DNA from: an uncultured Lentisphaeraceae bacterium
GTDB lineage: Bacteria; Verrucomicrobiota; Kiritimatiellia; RFP12; DVOR01
Direction of reading: 5' to 3'
DNA length: 64,000 nucleotides
Assembly: GCA_949282555.1 (NCBI GenBank)
Contig: CASDPK010000002.1
Location: 1 to 64,000 of the forward strand
Part shown: piece by piece, positions 53,241 to 62,956 of the stretch
Position numbering within the stretch: the stretch's first letter is position 1
Layout: the number at the start of each line of letters is the position of its first letter
Program-made: the position numbers and the translations under genes
Notes under the pieces: model-generated
The model's database searches: none
What the model was told of the DNA's origin: nothing
The model's input: the letters and a program-made list of their open reading frames with translations, nothing else

Positions 53241-53378
53241 AATGGCAACTCACACCTCTGTACGGCAGAACCCTCGCGCAGAATGAAAAATGTACGTAAA
53301 TGGCACTGGCCTGCGCTCAACGGTGGGGAGTGTTTTCGCTCTCTTAGACAGAGCTCCTATCCATTGCGAAGTTTGCGC

Positions 53379-53408
53379 TTGACATAGAGGGGGGGGACGA
53401 CCTATACT
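53379..53408 (+). promoter_or_regulatory. Near-consensus promoter of the PEP-CTERM gene
   Basis: TTGACA (53379-53384), 18 bases, TATACT (53403-53408). The transcript would have a leader of about 60 bases before ATG 53477. Confidence 0.85.
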
Positions 53409-53476
53409 TATCTTATCGTCGTTCGGGTGTCATTCGTGGCGACAGGCGATAAGGCCCCAAAACAAAGGATTGGATC

Positions 53477-54163
53477 ATGTTTCAAAGACTGTGTATTGCG
53501 CTGATTACTGCGTGGATGGCTATCGTCGCTCAGGCAGTGACCATTCCGTGGGAAAGCAGAACCGAGACTGCGACCACTCAGGGTGGCGGTTATGTGGTCG
53601 ACAAAACGGGAGCACAGAACCCCAACACCGTGCTTCGGCTCAGGTTTTCACTTTCAGCTTTGCCGACTTCCGGTTGCTTGCTGGTTTATGGATCATATGA
53701 AGGTGAGAACGGAAAGAAAGGTGGCGTTCATCTTTACTACGATAAGAACGGACATCTGACGGCGGAAATGGAATACAACATCACCGGGGGCACCTCTGTT
53801 TACCAACAGATAAACACGCCAGAATTGAATGTTGGTGCGAACGAGATCGTCATCGCCGTGCAACGGCCTGCGTCTACGAACACATCCTCCATCTTCATCA
53901 ATGGAGTGGAGTGTTTTACGCTGGTCCAAGGGGGCCAATCAGGTTTTGATTGGAGCCGTATCAAGTTTGGGGCCCCATTTACGGAGACAGACGTACTGAA
54001 AGCGTTAGAAGGTGCGGAACTTTCGTCGATTTCTGTTGAGCAAGCAAACGGAACGACGATTCAAGATGTGCGCGAGTATTGTGCCACGTTGCCGGAACCG
54101 ACCGTGCTGGCATTGTTAAGCCTAGGAATGGCAGGGTTGGCGTTGCGCCGCCACGTGGCATAA
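53477..54163 (+). CDS. PEP-CTERM sorted secreted protein with LamG-like domain
   Basis: A 228-residue precursor: signal peptide (1-20), a concanavalin/LamG-like beta sandwich (about 25-190: VLRLRFSLSALPTSG, SSIFINGVEC), then the PEP-CTERM sorting signal LPEPTVLALLSLGMAGLALR with a short basic tail (RRHVA). PEP-CTERM proteins are cleaved and exported by an exosortase, which must lie outside this window. The function of the mature protein is unknown; extracellular matrix or adhesion is typical. It is transcribed alone, with its own promoter and terminator. Base composition is more AT-rich than its neighbours. Confidence 0.88.
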   Translation: MFQRLCIALITAWMAIVAQAVTIPWESRTETATTQGGGYVVDKTGAQNPNTVLRLRFSLSALPTSGCLLVYGSYEGENGKKGGVHLYYDKNGHLTAEMEYNITGGTSVYQQINTPELNVGANEIVIAVQRPASTNTSSIFINGVECFTLVQGGQSGFDWSRIKFGAPFTETDVLKALEGAELSSISVEQANGTTIQDVREYCATLPEPTVLALLSLGMAGLALRRHVA

Positions 54164-54188
54164 GCGGATTCTTGTCCCATACTTGAAG

Positions 54189-54224
54189 CCTCCGCCCATA
54201 TCGATATGGGTGGAGGATGTTTTT
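54189..54224 (+). terminator. Intrinsic terminator of the PEP-CTERM gene
   Basis: CCTCC-G-CCCATATCGATATGGG-T-GGAGG forms a long stem with one internal mismatch, followed by ATGTTTTT. Confidence 0.85.
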
Positions 54225-54329
54225 GTGCACCCGGCATCCTCTCAATCTGTGATGCGTCATCTTTAGCGTCCGCTCGCATACAACAAGAGTTTTGTCCGCA
54301 TACGGTTGTCCCGACCACCTCAAAACCCA

Positions 54330-54359
54330 TTGCCATCCCAAACGGCGGGGGATTATACC
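54330..54359 (+). promoter_or_regulatory. Duplicated sulfatase promoter (upstream of the pseudogene)
   Basis: TTGCCA (54330-54335), 18 bases, TATACC (54354-54359). This region, from about 54277, resembles the promoter region of the intact sulfatase gene from about 54893, showing that the duplication included the promoter. Confidence 0.55.
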
Positions 54360-54438
54360 GGACGCCGTCAGAGGGCGGACGCGGCGCCGGGTCGATTGGC
54401 CCCGATGCGAGACGCGAGACCACACGGGAGGCTTCGGC

Positions 54439-54774
54439 ATGAATCGGCGTCGGTTTCCCCAAGGCATCGGTTGCATGGCCTTCGGGGCCATGGCCGGAGG
54501 TGCAATGGCCGCAGAAGCGGTGAAACATGAACCGCGGCGGCCGAATCTGCCGTATGTGTTCGCCGTCGAACTCCGTGCCCAAGGGCTGATGGAGTCCTAC
54601 CAGGCGGTGGACGTGGAGGCGCTCTGCGCAAAACGCCCCAACGTCCCCCCAAAGGGGACACGCTGGGGCAATTACTACCGCAAACAGATTCTGCACTGCC
54701 ATGCCGCCATCACCGGCATCGACGAACCGTTCGGCCGTCTGCTCGACGGACAGAAACGCTTGGGGCTCGAGCGC
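54439..54774 (+). pseudogene. Decayed sulfatase duplicate with internal deletion
   Basis: The segment encodes a Tat-like start (MNRRRFPQGIGCMA) and 47 residues matching the N-terminus of the intact sulfatase gene at 55080. It then jumps to the region corresponding to its residues from about 240 (ESYQAVDVEALCAKRPNVPP), and homology ends at LGLER near residue 112. Exactly 576 bp (192 codons) are missing relative to the intact copy, including the catalytic Cys; the metal-binding Asp in FADEL is Val here. The frame stays open to 55083 but downstream codons match nothing. An active enzyme is excluded. Confidence 0.88.
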
Positions 54775-55079
54775 ACAAACGATCCTTGGCCAAAAAAATC
54801 TGCCCTCCACGCCCAAGACCGATGGCCAAGCCCAAGGCCCCCGCCAACGGAGGACGCGGAAGAAAATGCGCCGCAAAGCATAAAATCGTCCTGCATACAG
54901 CCGTTTTGTCCATACCCAAAAGCATTGCCATCAAAACGCCCACAAGTTATACTGGACGTTGTTTGCCATTGTCGGCAGCGCCGCACCGCCGCTTCCTTCA
55001 CCAAGGAGGCCGAGGGAAGGAGGATTGCGTGTGGCAAAGGTGCCAAACGCAATTCGCACCATAACGAGAGGGAAAGTCT
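54775..55079 (+). other. Spacer after the pseudogene, with the sulfatase promoter
   Basis: No convincing gene. A Lys/Arg/Pro-rich open frame from 54786 looks incidental. From about 54893 the sequence resembles the stretch upstream of the pseudogene, ending in the sulfatase promoter and a GAGG-type ribosome site before 55080. Confidence 0.5.
54925..54953 (+). promoter_or_regulatory. Promoter of the sulfatase-lyase operon
   Basis: TTGCCA (54925-54930), 17 bases, TATACT (54948-54953). It precedes five closely spaced plus-strand genes by a leader of about 120 bases. Confidence 0.75.
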
Positions 55080-56606
55080 ATGAATCGGCGTCAATTTCTC
55101 CAAGGAATCGGCTGCATGGCCCTCGGGGCCGTGACAGGGAACGTTTCGGCCGCCGAAGCTGGGACATCTGAAACGCGACGCCCCAACCTCCTCTACGTCT
55201 TCGCCGACGAACTCCGTGCCCAAGCGCTGGGCTATATGGGGCTTGAGCCGGTCAAAACCCCGCGACTGGACGCCTTTGCGCAAGAAAGCGTCAATCTGAC
55301 GCAGGCCATCAGCAACTATCCCGTGTGCGTGCCCTACCGCACCATTCTGATGAGCGGACGTTATCCCTTCGGCAACGGCGTTTACGTGAATTGCTTTTGG
55401 GATGGGCGGCAAATGCCCGAATCGCTCGTTTGGTGGCCGGAAGTGCTCAAACGCAATGGCTACGCCACGGCCTACCTCGGCAAATGGCACATCAGCGTTC
55501 CCGATCGCCGATACCAAGGAAAAAAGGTCGCCGGCACGTGGCTGTCCCCGGAGCGGAGGCACGGCTTCGACCTCTTCTACTGCCACGATGGCAACCACCA
55601 CTTGCGCAATCGTTACGTCCATGGCGATTGGCCCTGCGACCGCTCGGAGACCGTGGAGCAGTGGACCCCGGAACACGAGACGGATGTCGCCCTCCGGTGG
55701 CTGGAGAACAAGGACGGCGCCCAGCGCGACCCCTCCAAGCCCTTCGCCCTCGTCGTCAGCTGGAATCCCCCGCACTCCCCCTACCATCTCCATTCCCAAC
55801 GGTTGATGGAGCCCTACAAGGCGGTGGACGTGGAGACGCTCTGCGCAAAGCTCCCCAACGTCCCACCGAAGGGAACGCAGTGGGGCGAGTATTACCGGAA
55901 GCAGATCCTCCACTACTATGCCGCCATCACCGGCATCGACGAACAGTTCGGCCGCTTGCTCGATGGTCTGAAACGGTTGGGACTTGAGCGCGACACGATT
56001 GTGGTCTTCACCTCCGACCACGGGAACTGCCTCGGACGCCACGGCGAAATCTCCAAGAACAACCATTACGAAGAATCCCTCCGAATCCCCCTGCTCTTCC
56101 GCTGGCCGGGAAAGATTCCCGCGCGCAAAGATCCCCTGCTCTTTTCCGTCGCGGACATGTATCCCACGCTGCTGGGCCTTGTCGGCCTCGCGCAGGAGGC
56201 CCCCAAGGGGCTCGACGGGGCCGACCTTTCCGGCATCTTGCGGGGCGAACCTGGCCCACGCCCGGCCTTTCAGCCCTACTACGGCATTGAGTGCAGTGTG
56301 CTTGCGACCGGAAAGCCCGATTACGGTCGCCGCGGCATCCGCACCGAACGCCACACACTCGTGTTGCGCTATGACAACGATGGCACCCTCGCGGAAACGT
56401 GGCTGTATGATCACGTGGCCGATCCCTTTGAGCAACACAACCTTGCCCAAGAACGCCCGGAGGTGGTCCGCGATCTCACCGAGCGGTACTTGCGCCCATG
56501 GCTCAAGCAAACGAAGGATTCTTGGCTGAACAATCTGCCGCCCACGGAGGCGGCACCCATCGCCTACCTCCCGCAAAAAGAACAAAAAGCCCCCGGAGGC
56601 CGCTGA
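55080..56606 (+). CDS. Secreted type I sulfatase
   Basis: A 508-residue sulfatase with an RRQFLQG N-terminal export signal. Metal-binding FADE (D43), the maturation motif CVPYR (C83 to R87, the Cys becoming formylglycine), GKWH and TSDHGNCLGRHGE are all in place. Activity needs an anaerobic sulfatase-maturating enzyme, not in this window. Its neighbours point to sulfated glycosaminoglycan or mucin as substrate, but the sulfate position is not predictable. It opens the lyase operon, and its stop overlaps the PL8 start as TGATG. A broken duplicate lies just upstream. Confidence 0.92.
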   Translation: MNRRQFLQGIGCMALGAVTGNVSAAEAGTSETRRPNLLYVFADELRAQALGYMGLEPVKTPRLDAFAQESVNLTQAISNYPVCVPYRTILMSGRYPFGNGVYVNCFWDGRQMPESLVWWPEVLKRNGYATAYLGKWHISVPDRRYQGKKVAGTWLSPERRHGFDLFYCHDGNHHLRNRYVHGDWPCDRSETVEQWTPEHETDVALRWLENKDGAQRDPSKPFALVVSWNPPHSPYHLHSQRLMEPYKAVDVETLCAKLPNVPPKGTQWGEYYRKQILHYYAAITGIDEQFGRLLDGLKRLGLERDTIVVFTSDHGNCLGRHGEISKNNHYEESLRIPLLFRWPGKIPARKDPLLFSVADMYPTLLGLVGLAQEAPKGLDGADLSGILRGEPGPRPAFQPYYGIECSVLATGKPDYGRRGIRTERHTLVLRYDNDGTLAETWLYDHVADPFEQHNLAQERPEVVRDLTERYLRPWLKQTKDSWLNNLPPTEAAPIAYLPQKEQKAPGGR

Positions 56607-59600
56607 TGTTCCGCAAAATCGCAACCCTTTTGGCAATCGTCGCGGCCCTTCCCGGGCTGGCGGCGCCCATGCTTTGCCTCAATGGCCGTCCGTGGACGCG
56701 TTCGGCGGTCATGCCGCAAGGTGCGTGGGCCGAAGTCACCGTGCGTGGCGTTTCGGCGACCACTCCCGTGACGCTGCGGGATAAGGTCACCGGTTTGGTG
56801 TGGCACGAAGGCACGGCCGCCGAATGCCGGGCTGGCCTGTGGTTGATCCGCCCCGGCATGATGATTTTGGAGGCGACCTTCGGGGGCGAAGGCGGCGCCA
56901 CCCAAAGCGTCGCCTTGGAGACCCGCGCCCCCAAAGGGGCAGAATTGGCCCCCGGGGCGTTGTTGCGGATGATTCGTCGCGCGCCCTCGTCCGAACTGCC
57001 AAAGGCGGAGGACTTCCGTCCGCCCAAAACCGCCACGGCGGCCGACCCCGCCCTGACGCCGGAAGCCAAGGCGTATCCCCCGTTCCGAACGTCGGAGAGT
57101 TCGGCCAAAGATCCCAAAGATGAGCCCTTTCATTTGCCGGGCTATTGGCACCGCCCCATTGAGGACATCCGTTTCGGCGGGGATGCGGGGATCGAAGGCG
57201 TCACGGTGCCGGATCTCGGGCGCGAGGATATCGCCGCGCGCATTGAGGGATTCCTTCTGATTGACCGAACGGGCGAATATGGCTTCCGCGTGGAAACCAA
57301 CATGAAGGCAGAGGCCTACATCGGCCGGAAGCGTCTGCTGGGGACCGAACAGATTCGCCTGACCCCGGGAAGGTTCCCCTTTTCCATCACGTTGCTGGGG
57401 CACGAACAGCCAACGTTGAAATTGATGTGGAAACCGCCGCGCGAGGAAACCTGGGCGCCGATCCCCCCCGAGCGGTTCCTCCACGCAGTGCCGGAGGCCG
57501 CGGAGGCGTGCTATGTCGCCTTCACGCAAGGAACCCCATGGCGAAAGCCCGAACCTTTGCAAAAAGGTGAGGCCCCCGAGTTTGCCCAAGAACCACCCGA
57601 GGCGCCCGACGCGGCCGCCTACCGCCCGGCACGCGATGCGTTGTTGAAACGTTTCCGGGCCACGGGCGACCTCGCCGCCGCCGAACGTCTGTTGCGTTGG
57701 ACGCAAGCTTACTTCATGCACGCCCGAAAGGTGCACGTGCCACGCTTCCTGTGGCTTCAGGATGGCGATCTGTTGGCCGATGGCGAAGCCTTGAGGCCCT
57801 TTTTGGAGACCTGTCTGCGGGTTCCTTCGCTCCAGCGGGCCGCCTTGCAGACGCGGATCACCATTCTGCGCAACACGGATATGGTGTTCGGGCGCACCTT
57901 CTTCGGCGAGCGCCACGCGGGAACCAACGATGCCTACGGCGACCGCAACAACTTTGTCTATCTCGTCTGGCAAACAGCATCCCTTTGGGACAATCCGTTG
58001 GCTTACGATGCCGCCCGTTGCCTCTACGACAACCACTTTTCCTATCTTTGGTCCACCTGCGATGGCATGGAAAGCGATGCCACCTTCAATTTCCACGCCG
58101 CCAACGGCCGCCAGCTCAACATGGGCGCCTACGGGAAGGACTGGGCGAACCGCGCCTTCCGTTTCACCCGCATTGGCACGCCTTGGGGCGAGACCCGCCG
58201 GCAATACGAACGCCTGGCCGATTATGTGCTCGCCTACGAATGGTTTTCCTATCACGGGACGTTGGCCTTCTGCGCCAATGGCCGCCACAACACGCATCAA
58301 GGCACCTGCCCCTGGGGATTCGCCGAACGTTTGCTCGCGCTCCCTGAGCAGTGCCTCTCGCAGACGACCCGGGAAGCCTTGAAGGAATTGCTCGTGCGGA
58401 CGCGCGATGGGAAGGGCGCCCTCGAAGGGAACCGCTTCTTCTTCCGGCAGTTGCAGGCCGTACACCGGCGCAAGGATTACTATCTCGACGTGAAGATGAG
58501 TTCCCCTTTGGTGGGCGGCGTGGAAACCTTTGCGGGGCAGAACCCCGGGAACCTCTCCTTCGGGGACGGCGTCACCACGCTCCTGCGCAAGGGGGATGAA
58601 TATCTCCAGATTCACCGTTACACGATCCCCGATTCATTGTGGCGCTTCCGCTCCCTTCCCGGCACCACCCAGCTCAACGAGGAGTGGGGATGCAATCATC
58701 CGTGGAAGGGGCTCGACCGTTATCGGGCCGGCGGAGGCTCCCGGGCCGGCGGCGTGAGCGATGGGACGCTGGGCCATTGTGGGTTCGAATTCGTCAGCCA
58801 CGGGCGCAATGCCACCCGCGCCAGGAAACTCTTTGTCTTCTTGGAGGATGGGTTGTTTGTGCTTGGCGGCGGCATCACCGGCGGCAAACCCGCCGAGGAG
58901 CCCTTCTCCTACCGCTCCACGCTCAACCAAACAACCTTTGTTGAGACCGTGACCCTCCGCGCCGAGGACGGCACAACCACCGAAATCCCCAAAGGGACGG
59001 AAGAGCGTCACCTCACGTTCCCCCTCACGCAACGCTTTTGGGTGGAGCACAACGGCATCGGTTACCTTGTCCTGCCTTCCGAGGCTCCCGCCGACAAGGG
59101 CGCCACGCTCAACGTCCGTGTCTCCGTGCGCACCCCGCTCAATCGTCTGATCCCGCGCATCCTCGACAATTCCGATCCGGACATGGTGGCGTACAAAGCC
59201 AGTTGCGCCGAACTCACCGCACAAGGACGGAAAGCATCCATCCTCGAGATTTGGGTGGATCACGGTACGCAACCCCAAGACGCAAGCGTCGCCTACTACG
59301 TCTGCATGCGCCCGGAGGCCTTCCCCGCCGAAGCGCTCTTGAAGGCTCCGCCCGTCGTGATCCTGTCGAACGACGCCACCTGCCAAGCCGTCAAAGACAT
59401 CACCTCCGGCGCCATTCACGCCTTCTTCTATGACGCCGGGACGCTCCCCTGCAAGCCTCGCCTCGGCGTGGATCGTTCCGCTTCGGTGATGCTTCGCCCC
59501 AAAGGACGGGGCTGGGTTGCGACGGTGCAAGATCCTGTGGTAGCCTGTACCAATGACACGGCACAGCATGCACAAAGTGTCACGCTGTCCCTCGGAGGCA

Positions 59601-59692
59601 TACGCCAAAAGGTCCCCCTTCCCGGCGCGGGAGACCCGGATGATCGTCGCCGGGGAAGACCGGTCTCCGTGACCTTGAGAAGTCTTTTTTAA
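56606..59692 (+). CDS. Polysaccharide lyase family 8-like enzyme with PA14-like N-terminal domain
   Basis: A 1028-residue exported protein. A signal peptide (1-19) is followed by a PA14-like beta barrel (about 200-300: GFLLIDRTGEYGFRVETNM). The alpha/alpha toroid and beta-sandwich layout of PL8 follows, with the active-site segment ATFNFHAANGRQLNMGAYG, where His and Tyr correspond to the lyase catalysts, and an upstream GDRNNF. PL8 enzymes cleave hyaluronate, chondroitin or xanthan by beta-elimination; the operon favours a glycosaminoglycan. GGAGG six bases before ATG 56606 sets the start. The PA14-PL8 combination is uncommon. Confidence 0.82.
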   Translation: MFRKIATLLAIVAALPGLAAPMLCLNGRPWTRSAVMPQGAWAEVTVRGVSATTPVTLRDKVTGLVWHEGTAAECRAGLWLIRPGMMILEATFGGEGGATQSVALETRAPKGAELAPGALLRMIRRAPSSELPKAEDFRPPKTATAADPALTPEAKAYPPFRTSESSAKDPKDEPFHLPGYWHRPIEDIRFGGDAGIEGVTVPDLGREDIAARIEGFLLIDRTGEYGFRVETNMKAEAYIGRKRLLGTEQIRLTPGRFPFSITLLGHEQPTLKLMWKPPREETWAPIPPERFLHAVPEAAEACYVAFTQGTPWRKPEPLQKGEAPEFAQEPPEAPDAAAYRPARDALLKRFRATGDLAAAERLLRWTQAYFMHARKVHVPRFLWLQDGDLLADGEALRPFLETCLRVPSLQRAALQTRITILRNTDMVFGRTFFGERHAGTNDAYGDRNNFVYLVWQTASLWDNPLAYDAARCLYDNHFSYLWSTCDGMESDATFNFHAANGRQLNMGAYGKDWANRAFRFTRIGTPWGETRRQYERLADYVLAYEWFSYHGTLAFCANGRHNTHQGTCPWGFAERLLALPEQCLSQTTREALKELLVRTRDGKGALEGNRFFFRQLQAVHRRKDYYLDVKMSSPLVGGVETFAGQNPGNLSFGDGVTTLLRKGDEYLQIHRYTIPDSLWRFRSLPGTTQLNEEWGCNHPWKGLDRYRAGGGSRAGGVSDGTLGHCGFEFVSHGRNATRARKLFVFLEDGLFVLGGGITGGKPAEEPFSYRSTLNQTTFVETVTLRAEDGTTTEIPKGTEERHLTFPLTQRFWVEHNGIGYLVLPSEAPADKGATLNVRVSVRTPLNRLIPRILDNSDPDMVAYKASCAELTAQGRKASILEIWVDHGTQPQDASVAYYVCMRPEAFPAEALLKAPPVVILSNDATCQAVKDITSGAIHAFFYDAGTLPCKPRLGVDRSASVMLRPKGRGWVATVQDPVVACTNDTAQHAQSVTLSLGGIRQKVPLPGAGDPDDRRRGRPVSVTLRSLF

Positions 59693-59708: not shown

Positions 59709-61163
59709 ATGAAAACACTCACGTTACTTGCAGCGCTTTTGCTCACCAGCGGCGTTTCCGCCAAATCCATCGAAACCCTCACCCCCGCCGAGCGGGAAAA
59801 GCTTGCGAAAATCGCCGACGTTCGGCCAGCCCCGCGCCAATTGGCTTGGCAGCAGCTTGAGATCGAAGGCTTTGTCCACTTCACCGTCAACACGTACACC
59901 GGCAAGGAATGGGGATCGGGCAAGGAAGACCCGAAGATTTTCAATCCCACCCATTTGGATTGCCGCCAGTGGGTGCGGGCCCTGAAATCCGCCGGCGCCA
60001 AACTGATCCTCCTCACCGCCAAACACCACGACGGATTCTGCCTGTGGCCCACCAAGACCACCCGCCATTCCGTGGCCTCCAGCCCGTGGAAAAACGGTAA
60101 GGGCGACGTGGTGCGCGAATTCGTGGATGCCTGCCGCGCCGAGGGCGTCAAGGTGGGGCTCTACCTTTCCCCATGGGATCGCAACGCCGAATGCTACGGT
60201 TCGCCGGCCTACAACGATTTCTTCGTGGCCCAGCTCAACGAACTCTTTGAGAACTATGGCCCTATTGAGGCCATGTGGTTCGATGGGGCCTGTGGCGAGG
60301 GTCCGAACGGAAAGAAGCAGGTTTATGACTGGCCGCGCTTCTACGCCACCATCCGCAAGCACAATCCCAACTGCGTGATCTCTGTCTCCGGGCCGGATGT
60401 GCGCTGGGTCGGCAACGAGGCCGGTTATGCCCGCGAGAGCGAATGGAGCGTGGTGCCGGCCGTCAAAATGGACAACGACGCCGTCCGCAAGCAATTTGAA
60501 TCCTTCCACTATGAGGGTGATGATCTAAAGGAACTGGCAAAGCGTTTGGCCACGTTGCCCATCCATGACCGCAGAGATCAGGATCTTGGAAGCCTGGAAA
60601 GCGTCCTCGCCGCCGACGCATGGGCGTGGTATCCCGCGGAGACCAACTTCTCCATCCGTCCCGGTTGGTTCTACCATGCCTCACAGGATGGGCAGGTGAA
60701 GGATTTGGACGCCCTGTTGGATCGTTACTACAGCTCCGTGGGGCGCAACACCGTGATGCTCATCAATGTGCCCCCGGCGCCCGATGGGCGCTTCCATGAA
60801 CGCGATGTCGCCAGTCTTGAGGCTTTCGGCAAGGCCATCCGGGCCACCTTCGCAAAGAACCTTCTCGGCGAAGTCCGCCCGGGGCAGACCGAGGCAAAGC
60901 TCGCCAAGCCGATCACCTTCGATGTGCTCATGGCGCAGGAAGACATCGCGCAGGGCCAGCGCGTCGAGCGCTTCCGCTTCGAGGCACAAAGCCCCGACTG
61001 GGAAGGCTGGAAGACCATCGCCTCCGCCACGACCATCGGCTACAAGCGCCTGTTGCGCTTGAAGGAGCCCGTCACCGCCACAGCCGTGCGCCTCGTCATT
61101 GAGGAAACGCGCGCCACGCCGCATATCCTCTCCATCGGGGCCTATAAGAGCAAAACCGAATGA
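59709..61163 (+). CDS. Secreted GH29 alpha-L-fucosidase, second copy
   Basis: A 484-residue exported fucosidase: signal peptide (1-18), TIM barrel with FVHFTVNTYTGKEWG, TAKHHDGFCLW, VGLYLSPWDRN and IEAMWFDGAC (nucleophile Asp), and a short C-terminal beta module. It belongs to a different GH29 branch than the enzyme at 34717 (shorter; FVHFTVNTYTGKEWG form). It would remove fucose that blocks the lyases encoded beside it. The stop overlaps the next start by ATGA. Confidence 0.92.
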   Translation: MKTLTLLAALLLTSGVSAKSIETLTPAEREKLAKIADVRPAPRQLAWQQLEIEGFVHFTVNTYTGKEWGSGKEDPKIFNPTHLDCRQWVRALKSAGAKLILLTAKHHDGFCLWPTKTTRHSVASSPWKNGKGDVVREFVDACRAEGVKVGLYLSPWDRNAECYGSPAYNDFFVAQLNELFENYGPIEAMWFDGACGEGPNGKKQVYDWPRFYATIRKHNPNCVISVSGPDVRWVGNEAGYARESEWSVVPAVKMDNDAVRKQFESFHYEGDDLKELAKRLATLPIHDRRDQDLGSLESVLAADAWAWYPAETNFSIRPGWFYHASQDGQVKDLDALLDRYYSSVGRNTVMLINVPPAPDGRFHERDVASLEAFGKAIRATFAKNLLGEVRPGQTEAKLAKPITFDVLMAQEDIAQGQRVERFRFEAQSPDWEGWKTIASATTIGYKRLLRLKEPVTATAVRLVIEETRATPHILSIGAYKSKTE

Positions 61164-62956
61164 GGCGACGCTTCCCATTGCTGATGGGTGTGGGCCTCGT
61201 AGCCATCTGGCTCCAGGCACAGACACCCATCGCATGGGAGATGCTGAACCCTTCGTGTCCCGGTCTCGGCTCTGTGGCCGAGGCTGTGGCACAGGGTGAC
61301 GGCGACGCGGCCGAAGCCGCGTTGCTGGCCCATTTTCGCACCCGCCCCGACATTGTGGACGCATGGACAAAAGCCAAGAAGCGGATGCCTTCGGCATTTG
61401 AGCGAAAGGTGGCGGACGCCGCCTTGGGACACAGGTTCTATGTGCACGACAGCCAGCCCGAATGGCTGTTCTACGGCAACGACATCGACTGGGCGTTCTG
61501 GCCCGTGAAAGCCAACGAGCTTCGTTGGCAACTGCACCGCCACAAATGGTTTATGCCATTGCTCCGCGTGTGGGCCGCCACGGGTGACACGCGCTATTTC
61601 TCCGCTTGGAAGGAGCAGTGGGCGGACTGGCGGCGCAAAAATCCGTGGCCGATCACCTCCAAATCGGAGCGAGAGAATGCACGCTTTGCGTGGCGTCCGC
61701 TGGAGGTCAGTCACCGTTTGGACGACCTTCCGCGACAACTCGCGCTGGCCGTGCATGCGCCCGAGTTCACGGCCGCCGATCTCCGCGTGTTCCTCGCCGA
61801 CGTGATCCGCCACGGGAATGAGGTCTGGGAGAGACGCTCCGCAAAAGGCAACCATCTGCTCTTTGAAATGCAACGGTTGCTGGCGGCGGCCCAAGCCTTT
61901 CCGGAGTTGAACGTCTCCGCCCAATGGCAGACCAACGCCGTGCGCGTGTTGCGTGAGGAGTTGCGGAAGCAGGTTTATCCCGATGGCGTGCAATACGAGC
62001 TCGACCTTGGTTATCACCTCAGCGCCTACGCCCTCTTCCGCTCCGCCGCGGAAATGGCCCCCGCAGCCTTCACCGAGGAAGACCGTGCGAAGATCGGCCG
62101 TATGGCGGCCTTCGCCGACGATCTCTTTTTCCCGGATGGCGGACATCCCTACTTTGCCGACACCCACACCCTAGGCCCCAAACGCCGCCGACTCACGGAA
62201 GAGGCCAAAGCCCTTTTCCCAAAAGCGTTCGATCGCCCGGCGTTCGCCTCGCGCGCTTATCCCCATGGCGGATTTTACGTGTTGCGCGAAGGGACGCCCG
62301 AGACGGGCTCCATGGTCGTGCTCAAAGCCGGGCCGCCCGCGTTTTGGCACAATCAGCCCGACAACGGGACCTTCTCCTACTGGCATCGCGGGCGAGACTT
62401 CTTCCCCGACGCCGGGTCTTACGTCTACGGAGGCCCCGACACCGATGCGGCGCGAGCGACCTTCCGAGCCTCCAAGGTCCATTCGACCCTCACGTTGGAC
62501 GACAAGGACATTGCCCCCGGTTCTCAGTGTACCCATTGGGAGGTCCGCGAGGGAGGAGAGACAACGGTCTCGGTGAGCACCCCCGTCTATCCCGGGGTCA
62601 TCCATCAACGCTCCATGCGCTTGCGCCCAGGAGGTGTTTTGGAAGTTGAGGATCAGCTTTCCGGCGCACCGGAGGGATGCGTGAGGATTCGGTTCTGTCT
62701 CGCCCCCGGCGCCAATCCGATCCGCCTCCCCGACGGTTCTTGGCGCACACGTTTCCCGGATGGGAACAATATCCGCCTGCGGCCGTCGGATGCCGACTGG
62801 ACGGCCGAGTTGGAGCATGGCTGGCATTCGCGCACCTCCGGACAAAAGGAAGCCCGCCCCATCCTTCGATTCGAAAAGCGAACGTCCGGCGCACACCCTC
62901 TCAAACTGACCACCATCATTGAGCCCATCTCCGACAAAACGGAAGAAAACCCATGA
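61160..62956 (+). CDS. Heparinase II/III-family polysaccharide lyase
   Basis: A 598-residue exported protein with signal peptide (1-20). The N-terminal alpha/alpha toroid (ANELRWQLHRHKWFMPLLR, SKGNH-like AKGNHLLFEMQ, YPDGVQYELDLGYH with the expected catalytic Tyr/His) is followed by a C-terminal beta-sandwich (heparinase II/III domain, about 350-590: LKAGPPAFWHNQPDNGTFSY). This matches PL12-type heparan-sulfate lyases. Cleavage of a uronic-acid polysaccharide is likely; heparan specificity is not proven. It overlaps both neighbours by ATGA. Confidence 0.87.
   Translation: MRRRFPLLMGVGLVAIWLQAQTPIAWEMLNPSCPGLGSVAEAVAQGDGDAAEAALLAHFRTRPDIVDAWTKAKKRMPSAFERKVADAALGHRFYVHDSQPEWLFYGNDIDWAFWPVKANELRWQLHRHKWFMPLLRVWAATGDTRYFSAWKEQWADWRRKNPWPITSKSERENARFAWRPLEVSHRLDDLPRQLALAVHAPEFTAADLRVFLADVIRHGNEVWERRSAKGNHLLFEMQRLLAAAQAFPELNVSAQWQTNAVRVLREELRKQVYPDGVQYELDLGYHLSAYALFRSAAEMAPAAFTEEDRAKIGRMAAFADDLFFPDGGHPYFADTHTLGPKRRRLTEEAKALFPKAFDRPAFASRAYPHGGFYVLREGTPETGSMVVLKAGPPAFWHNQPDNGTFSYWHRGRDFFPDAGSYVYGGPDTDAARATFRASKVHSTLTLDDKDIAPGSQCTHWEVREGGETTVSVSTPVYPGVIHQRSMRLRPGGVLEVEDQLSGAPEGCVRIRFCLAPGANPIRLPDGSWRTRFPDGNNIRLRPSDADWTAELEHGWHSRTSGQKEARPILRFEKRTSGAHPLKLTTIIEPISDKTEENP

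Follow-up and report, generated by a model that had tools for sequence, protein, structure and literature searches.

Ordinary bacterial pseudogenes arise through slips in homopolymer runs and through deletions that join short direct repeats. The sulfatase remnant described here resembles them in the repeats at its deletion junctions, in a frame shift within a run of seven A, and in a missense change at a metal ligand; it differs in that both of its internal losses keep the reading frame, and nothing else about it is unusual. A literature search found nothing on bacterial pseudogenes formed by in-frame deletion between short direct repeats, and likewise nothing on sulfatase pseudogenes of Kiritimatiellota or on tandem sulfatase duplicates decaying in polysaccharide-utilization loci. 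The enzymes concerned, the S1 sulfatases, are recognised by the formylglycine motif Cys/Ser-x-Pro-x-Arg. Their genes are expanded in the Kiritimatiellales and elsewhere among PVC bacteria, with many S1 genes per genome (PMC6388578), and the present genome is similar in this respect, with 25 matches to PF00884, some of them pieces of one gene. The main text of that study does not contain the word 'pseudogene', and decayed tandem copies are not described there under that word. A further point of comparison is the pair of 4-O-sulfatases exoPB4SF and endoVB4SF, which by the account in PMC6581707 are 83% identical and act in exo and endo fashion, respectively. As enzymes about 80% alike with different jobs they set a precedent, but they come from two different bacteria.

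The sulfatase locus and its working gene

The window analysed is the whole stretch of 64,000 nucleotides, bases 1-64000 of a contig of 128,618 bases, in a draft genome of 2.43 Mb (94.3% complete, 65 contigs). A dead tandem sulfatase copy lies in it at 54439-54883, directly in front of the working gene at 55080-56606. Profile searches placed both within a run of genes, given here in the order in which they occur:

53477-54163, PEP-CTERM-type gene, upstream of the remnant (20.4 bits, slightly below the Pfam cut-off of 20.7)
54189..54216, + strand, terminator-like stem 3' of the PEP-CTERM-type gene, from a consensus scan (12 pairs, then a T-rich tail)
54439-54883, sulfatase remnant
54925..54953, + strand, promoter-like site of the intact sulfatase gene (TTGCCA, 17, TATACT), listed by the promoter scan
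55080..56606, + strand, intact sulfatase gene (508 aa, PF00884)
56606..59692, + strand, PL8-type polysaccharide lyase gene (PF02278, PF02884), its start overlapping the sulfatase stop
59709-61163, alpha-L-fucosidase-type gene
61160-62956, heparinase II/III-type gene

The intact gene matches PF00884 with 163.6 bits against a curated cut-off of 25, and its CVPYR motif, residues 83-87, falls on positions 96-100 of endoVB4SF in the alignment. Its nearest solved relative is this last enzyme, a chondroitin/dermatan sulfate 4-O-endosulfatase (PDB 6j66, E 7.5e-114, residues 29-490), with which it shares both the Cys-x-Pro-x-Arg motif and the calcium-ligand Asp; the 'putative sulfatase yidJ' (PDB 2qzu) is nearly as good a match (E 1.9e-113). 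From the best solved match and the adjoining PL8 lyase gene, which is in keeping with such a substrate, the intact gene is likely to encode a chondroitin/dermatan sulfate 4-O-sulfatase. The stop codon of the sulfatase gene shares TGATG (56604-56608) with the start codon of the lyase gene, and stop and start codons of the fucosidase-type and heparinase-type genes also overlap, at 61160-61163; these overlaps suggest a single operon for glycosaminoglycan breakdown.

It should be noted that in the interval 53300-56700 the scan listed 2 promoter-like sites, against 1.1 in shuffled sequences, and 7 terminator-like sites, against 4.0, the latter count being no evidence of function. The strong stem at 54189-54216 directly follows the PEP-CTERM-type gene.

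Structure of the remnant

A repeat search aligned 54439-54497 with 55080-55138 at 85% identity, 54507-54588 with 55148-55229 at 78%, and 54571-54774 with 55788-55991 at 84%. When the region 54260-55079 was searched against the whole genome at the DNA level, only itself and the intact gene were found at E <= 0.001 (1.2e-57 and 1.9e-25), values that exclude a chance likeness. A separate scan for tandem repeats gave 0 rows. The remnant keeps 445 of about 1,530 nt, in three blocks colinear with the intact gene and preceded by a promoter-like block:

54330..54359, + strand, promoter-like block in front of the dead copy, TTGCCA and TATACC with a spacer of 18; similar to 54925-54953, its -10 being the weaker one
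54439..54582, + strand, block 1, codons 1-48, with a Tat-like signal and the N-terminal strand in which Asp43 has become Val
54583..54774, + strand, block 2, 64 codons equivalent to codons 241-304 of the intact gene, 84% DNA identity
54775..54883, + strand, block 3, C-terminal tail to the native-frame stop TAA at 54881-54883

The preliminary description, made from the sequence by itself, had proposed a duplicated gene that retained its promoter and its start, and the homology of the blocks and the shared promoter-like pattern bear this out. An exact pattern built from the promoter blocks of both copies occurs, with 0 mismatches, at only two places in the genome, although the remnant's block is absent from the list of the consensus promoter scan. 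Outside this block the upstream regions of the two copies differ greatly. A genome-wide regulatory motif of many sulfatase genes, considered as another origin of the block, was ruled out by the two occurrences. The upstream TTTTGTCC element, scanned for with a wrong spacing, gave 0 matches.

The sequences at the junctions, together with the frame shift, are as follows:

54578..54582, + strand, CCCAA at the first deletion junction
55219..55223, + strand, left CCCAA counterpart of deletion 1 in the intact gene
55795..55799, + strand, right CCCAA counterpart of deletion 1 in the intact gene
54769..54774, + strand, GAGCGC at the second deletion junction (intact counterpart 55986-55991)
55992..56510, + strand, part of the intact gene whose equivalent deletion 2 removed from the remnant (519 nt, 173 codons in intact coordinates, derived from the alignments)
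54792..54798, + strand, A7 run with one extra base that shifts the frame

The two CCCAA sequences of the intact gene are 576 nt, or 192 codons, apart, and the flanks in the remnant are compatible with a join at CCCAA. The stretch lost between them, a multiple of three, contains Cys83 of CVPYR. This confirms the in-frame loss of 576 bp, including the catalytic Cys, that had been proposed for this junction; slippage between the short repeats would account for it.

The same account had recognised two separate sulfatase parts; these stand, but the C-terminal tail had been missed, and the count becomes three parts and two losses. After GAGCGC the remnant continues with ACAAACGATCCTTGGCC, which resembles the far end of the intact gene rather than its next part; the counterparts are ACGAAGGATTCTTGG in the intact gene (from 56511) and ACGAAGGATCCCTGG in the homologue from the related genome G012. 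The encoded peptide reads LERTNDPWP and, after one extra base, NLPS, where G012 has LERTKDPWLGNLPS and the intact gene LKQTKDSWLNNLPP, and at this position endoVB4SF (PDB 6j66) has LELTGDPW, so that L-x-x-T-x-D-x-W is common to block 3 and the solved structure. In a fixed-register peptide test allowing one optional shift, the remnant tail had 8 of 11 identities with G012, a result equalled by 0 of 30000 mononucleotide shuffles, and 6 of 11 with the intact tail, equalled by 3 of 30000; an unrelated filler after 54774 was ruled out on this basis. Free DNA alignment is weaker: of 5000 dinucleotide shuffles, 86 and 107 did equally well (about the 2% level), and in an earlier free alignment the intact tail scored 35, the best of 500 shuffles reaching 36, and the G012 slice, which aligned elsewhere, scored 23 against 36. 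With a third homologous block present, a single loss no longer suffices, and the remnant has undergone two, of 576 and about 519 nt, both in frame. The G012 homologue carries GGAGCGCAC on the right-hand side of the second loss, and to judge from that genome GAGCGC was probably repeated in the remnant's ancestor; the intact copy has AAGCAA there instead. The stretch 54775-54811 aligns with the intact tail once one base of the A7 run is treated as inserted, and the native-frame stop lies downstream of this shift.

Of the 14 pocket residues of endoVB4SF named in PMC6581707, mapped by hand on the alignment, 12 are deleted in the remnant; Val replaces the equivalent of Asp56, the calcium-ligand position occupied by Asp43 in the intact gene, and Glu57 is retained. 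From the 21 residues in Table 4 of that paper the remnant has lost 18; Asp56 is the one replaced, and Phe54 and Tyr301 are retained. The equivalents of Cys96, Asp343 and His344 are deleted, leaving the remnant without its catalytic Cys and calcium ligands; the missense changes also include a proline in the signal. A Pfam search of 54439-55083 gave no family at E <= 0.001, the sulfatase domain included. Compared with its intact homologue the upstream copy has thus suffered two internal losses, a frame shift and missense changes, and its description as a dead gene is supported.

Age and origin of the pair

Across 112 codons the remnant and the intact gene differ with dS 0.65 (95% CI 0.42-0.97), dN 0.126 and dN/dS 0.19 (CI 0.105-0.353), and 35 of the 65 differences are at third codon positions. 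For the intact gene and its G012 homologue the same codons give dS 1.35 (CI 0.86 to the ceiling of 3) and dN/dS 0.10, and the full gene 1.28 and 0.09; one extra Ala codon of G012 is left out of the 112-codon counts. The ratio of the two dS values, copies to intact-G012, is 0.48 (CI 0.21-0.83). If rates were even, the pair would, on these distances, be younger than the split from G012 and about half as old. In trees of the 112 overlapping codons the order of the two splits is not settled (support 52 for DNA and 50 for protein). At codon positions 1, 2 and 3 the remnant branch has 6, 10 and 15 changes and the intact branch 8, 2 and 14; the higher number at second positions (10 vs 2, counts only) is as expected of a late loss of constraint, and first positions show no such excess. 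The unconstrained share of the remnant's life is estimated at 0.15 (CI -0.06 to 1.99, too wide to bound it), and dN/dS on its branch at 0.23 (CI 0.06-1.94, also too wide). The value of dS, the low dN/dS and the share of third positions indicate that by the time of the collapse the copies had been diverging for long, for the most part under selection. Conversion of one copy by the other was set aside on the repeat search, in which the blocks stand at 78-85% with no near-identical tract.

Close relatives of the gene are few. The genus is represented by 17 genomes, own included, which make up the whole family sample, and 16 of them have some sulfatase match; besides the present genome only G012 has a close homologue (82% identity in protein, 77% in DNA), other near-full-length matches in the genus being at 43-48% among those listed. 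Order-wide, 5 of 161 genomes have matches at E <= 1e-100, all of them in this genus, with up to 9 candidates scored per genome. The G012 homologue (L042, 8804-10276) is full length, its only stop following NLPS at the C-terminus, and is single within the 19.9 kb read around it; the stretch upstream of it resembles purD. None of four proteins of the gene run (PEP-CTERM type, PL8, fucosidase, heparinase) has a match in these 19.9 kb, and with the homologue in such a different neighbourhood, the sulfatase must have moved in one of the two lineages. Homologues of the PL8 lyase are present in G012 and G016 at 61-63%, and the 10-11 kb around them contain no match to this sulfatase at E <= 1e-5. An intact tandem pair, for which a comparison of relatives had been suggested, occurs in none of the 17 genomes, and a conserved short form in none of the 16 others.

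We regard the remnant as a dead tandem paralogue that diverged for long under selection and was then broken by two short-repeat deletions and a one-base slip, a reading to which we give a probability of about 0.83. An ancestral unit of promoter and sulfatase would have become a tandem pair in the organism's own lineage, long ago, and for most of the period that followed both copies would have kept working. Death of the upstream copy would then have come through deletions of about 576 and 519 nt between short direct repeats, both multiples of three, and through one extra base gained in an A run, which together would leave a remnant whose active site no longer works. The downstream gene would have gone on as the functional sulfatase, with a promoter-like site of its own and a stop that overlaps the PL8 start. 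The event that made the pair has left no readable trace, and we infer a duplication from this genome alone.

It is on the origin, and not on the decay, that the best surviving alternative differs. One of the copies might be a xenologue, acquired from another species and placed beside a resident gene, after which one of the two decayed. For a copy made within a genome, the dS value is large, the G012 homologue demonstrates that the gene moves, and the upstream regions are dissimilar beyond the promoter block. This block is nevertheless common to both copies, its exact pattern being found nowhere else in the genome, the GC3 values over the 112 codons are alike (0.73 and 0.75), and all of the highest-scoring homologues in the order belong to this genus, so we consider a foreign origin unlikely.

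A recent duplication, as originally proposed, after which one copy escaped constraint and diverged fast, would suit two adjacent copies with a promoter block in common. However, silent change between recent duplicates should be slight, and a copy free of constraint should have a ratio nearer 1; the silent divergence found here, with 35 of 65 differences at third positions and a dN/dS whose upper limit is 0.353, makes this origin very improbable, and the word 'recent' has to be given up.

The remaining open frame and the meaning of the remnant

The frame that is open after the shift requires separate mention:

54439..55083, + strand, 214-codon open frame ending in ATGA over the start codon of the intact gene

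Such a frame might have been kept as a translated leader, the ATGA overlap coupling its translation to that of the working sulfatase; if true, a dead paralogue would have been turned into a regulatory upstream frame that delivers ribosomes to the working gene. Both losses are in frame (a chance of 1 in 9), the ATGA overlap is present at 55080-55083, and the frame is open across 54805-55079, as it is in 3.4% of 5000 mononucleotide shuffles; with a frame chosen after the event, none of this is strong. A better promoter-like site, that of the intact gene itself, lies inside the 214-codon frame, the missense changes affect a calcium ligand and the signal proline, and the short form is confined to this genome within the genus, so that a retained leader is hardly to be expected. 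Equally hard to credit is an artefact of the 65-contig draft, whether a mis-joined contig or a homopolymer error at the A7 run, since blocks that differ by 15-22% from the intact gene cannot be its mis-assembled duplicate and the remnant lies well inside its contig; the A7 shift could by itself be an error, which would leave the verdict unchanged.

Taken as a dead paralogue, the remnant is a case of ordinary birth and death, a readable instance of gene turnover in a genome rich in sulfatase genes, and it opens no general question. A second sulfatase, divergent enough for a substrate or mode of action of its own, would have been kept for long beside a lyase gene and then lost. With an exo and an endo enzyme on record at 83% identity, the lost copy could have differed from the intact one in its action, although this is speculation. 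For annotation, the stretch should be entered as three pieces of one dead gene and not as a small gene, and the adjacency of tandem copies is no ground for calling them recent.

Another sulfatase gene of the same genome (L080, G000:C3:78500-82500, minus strand) is split into two open frames of 278 and 301 codons that lie in different frames; it is either frame-shifted or misread, and is a second candidate for a dead sulfatase.
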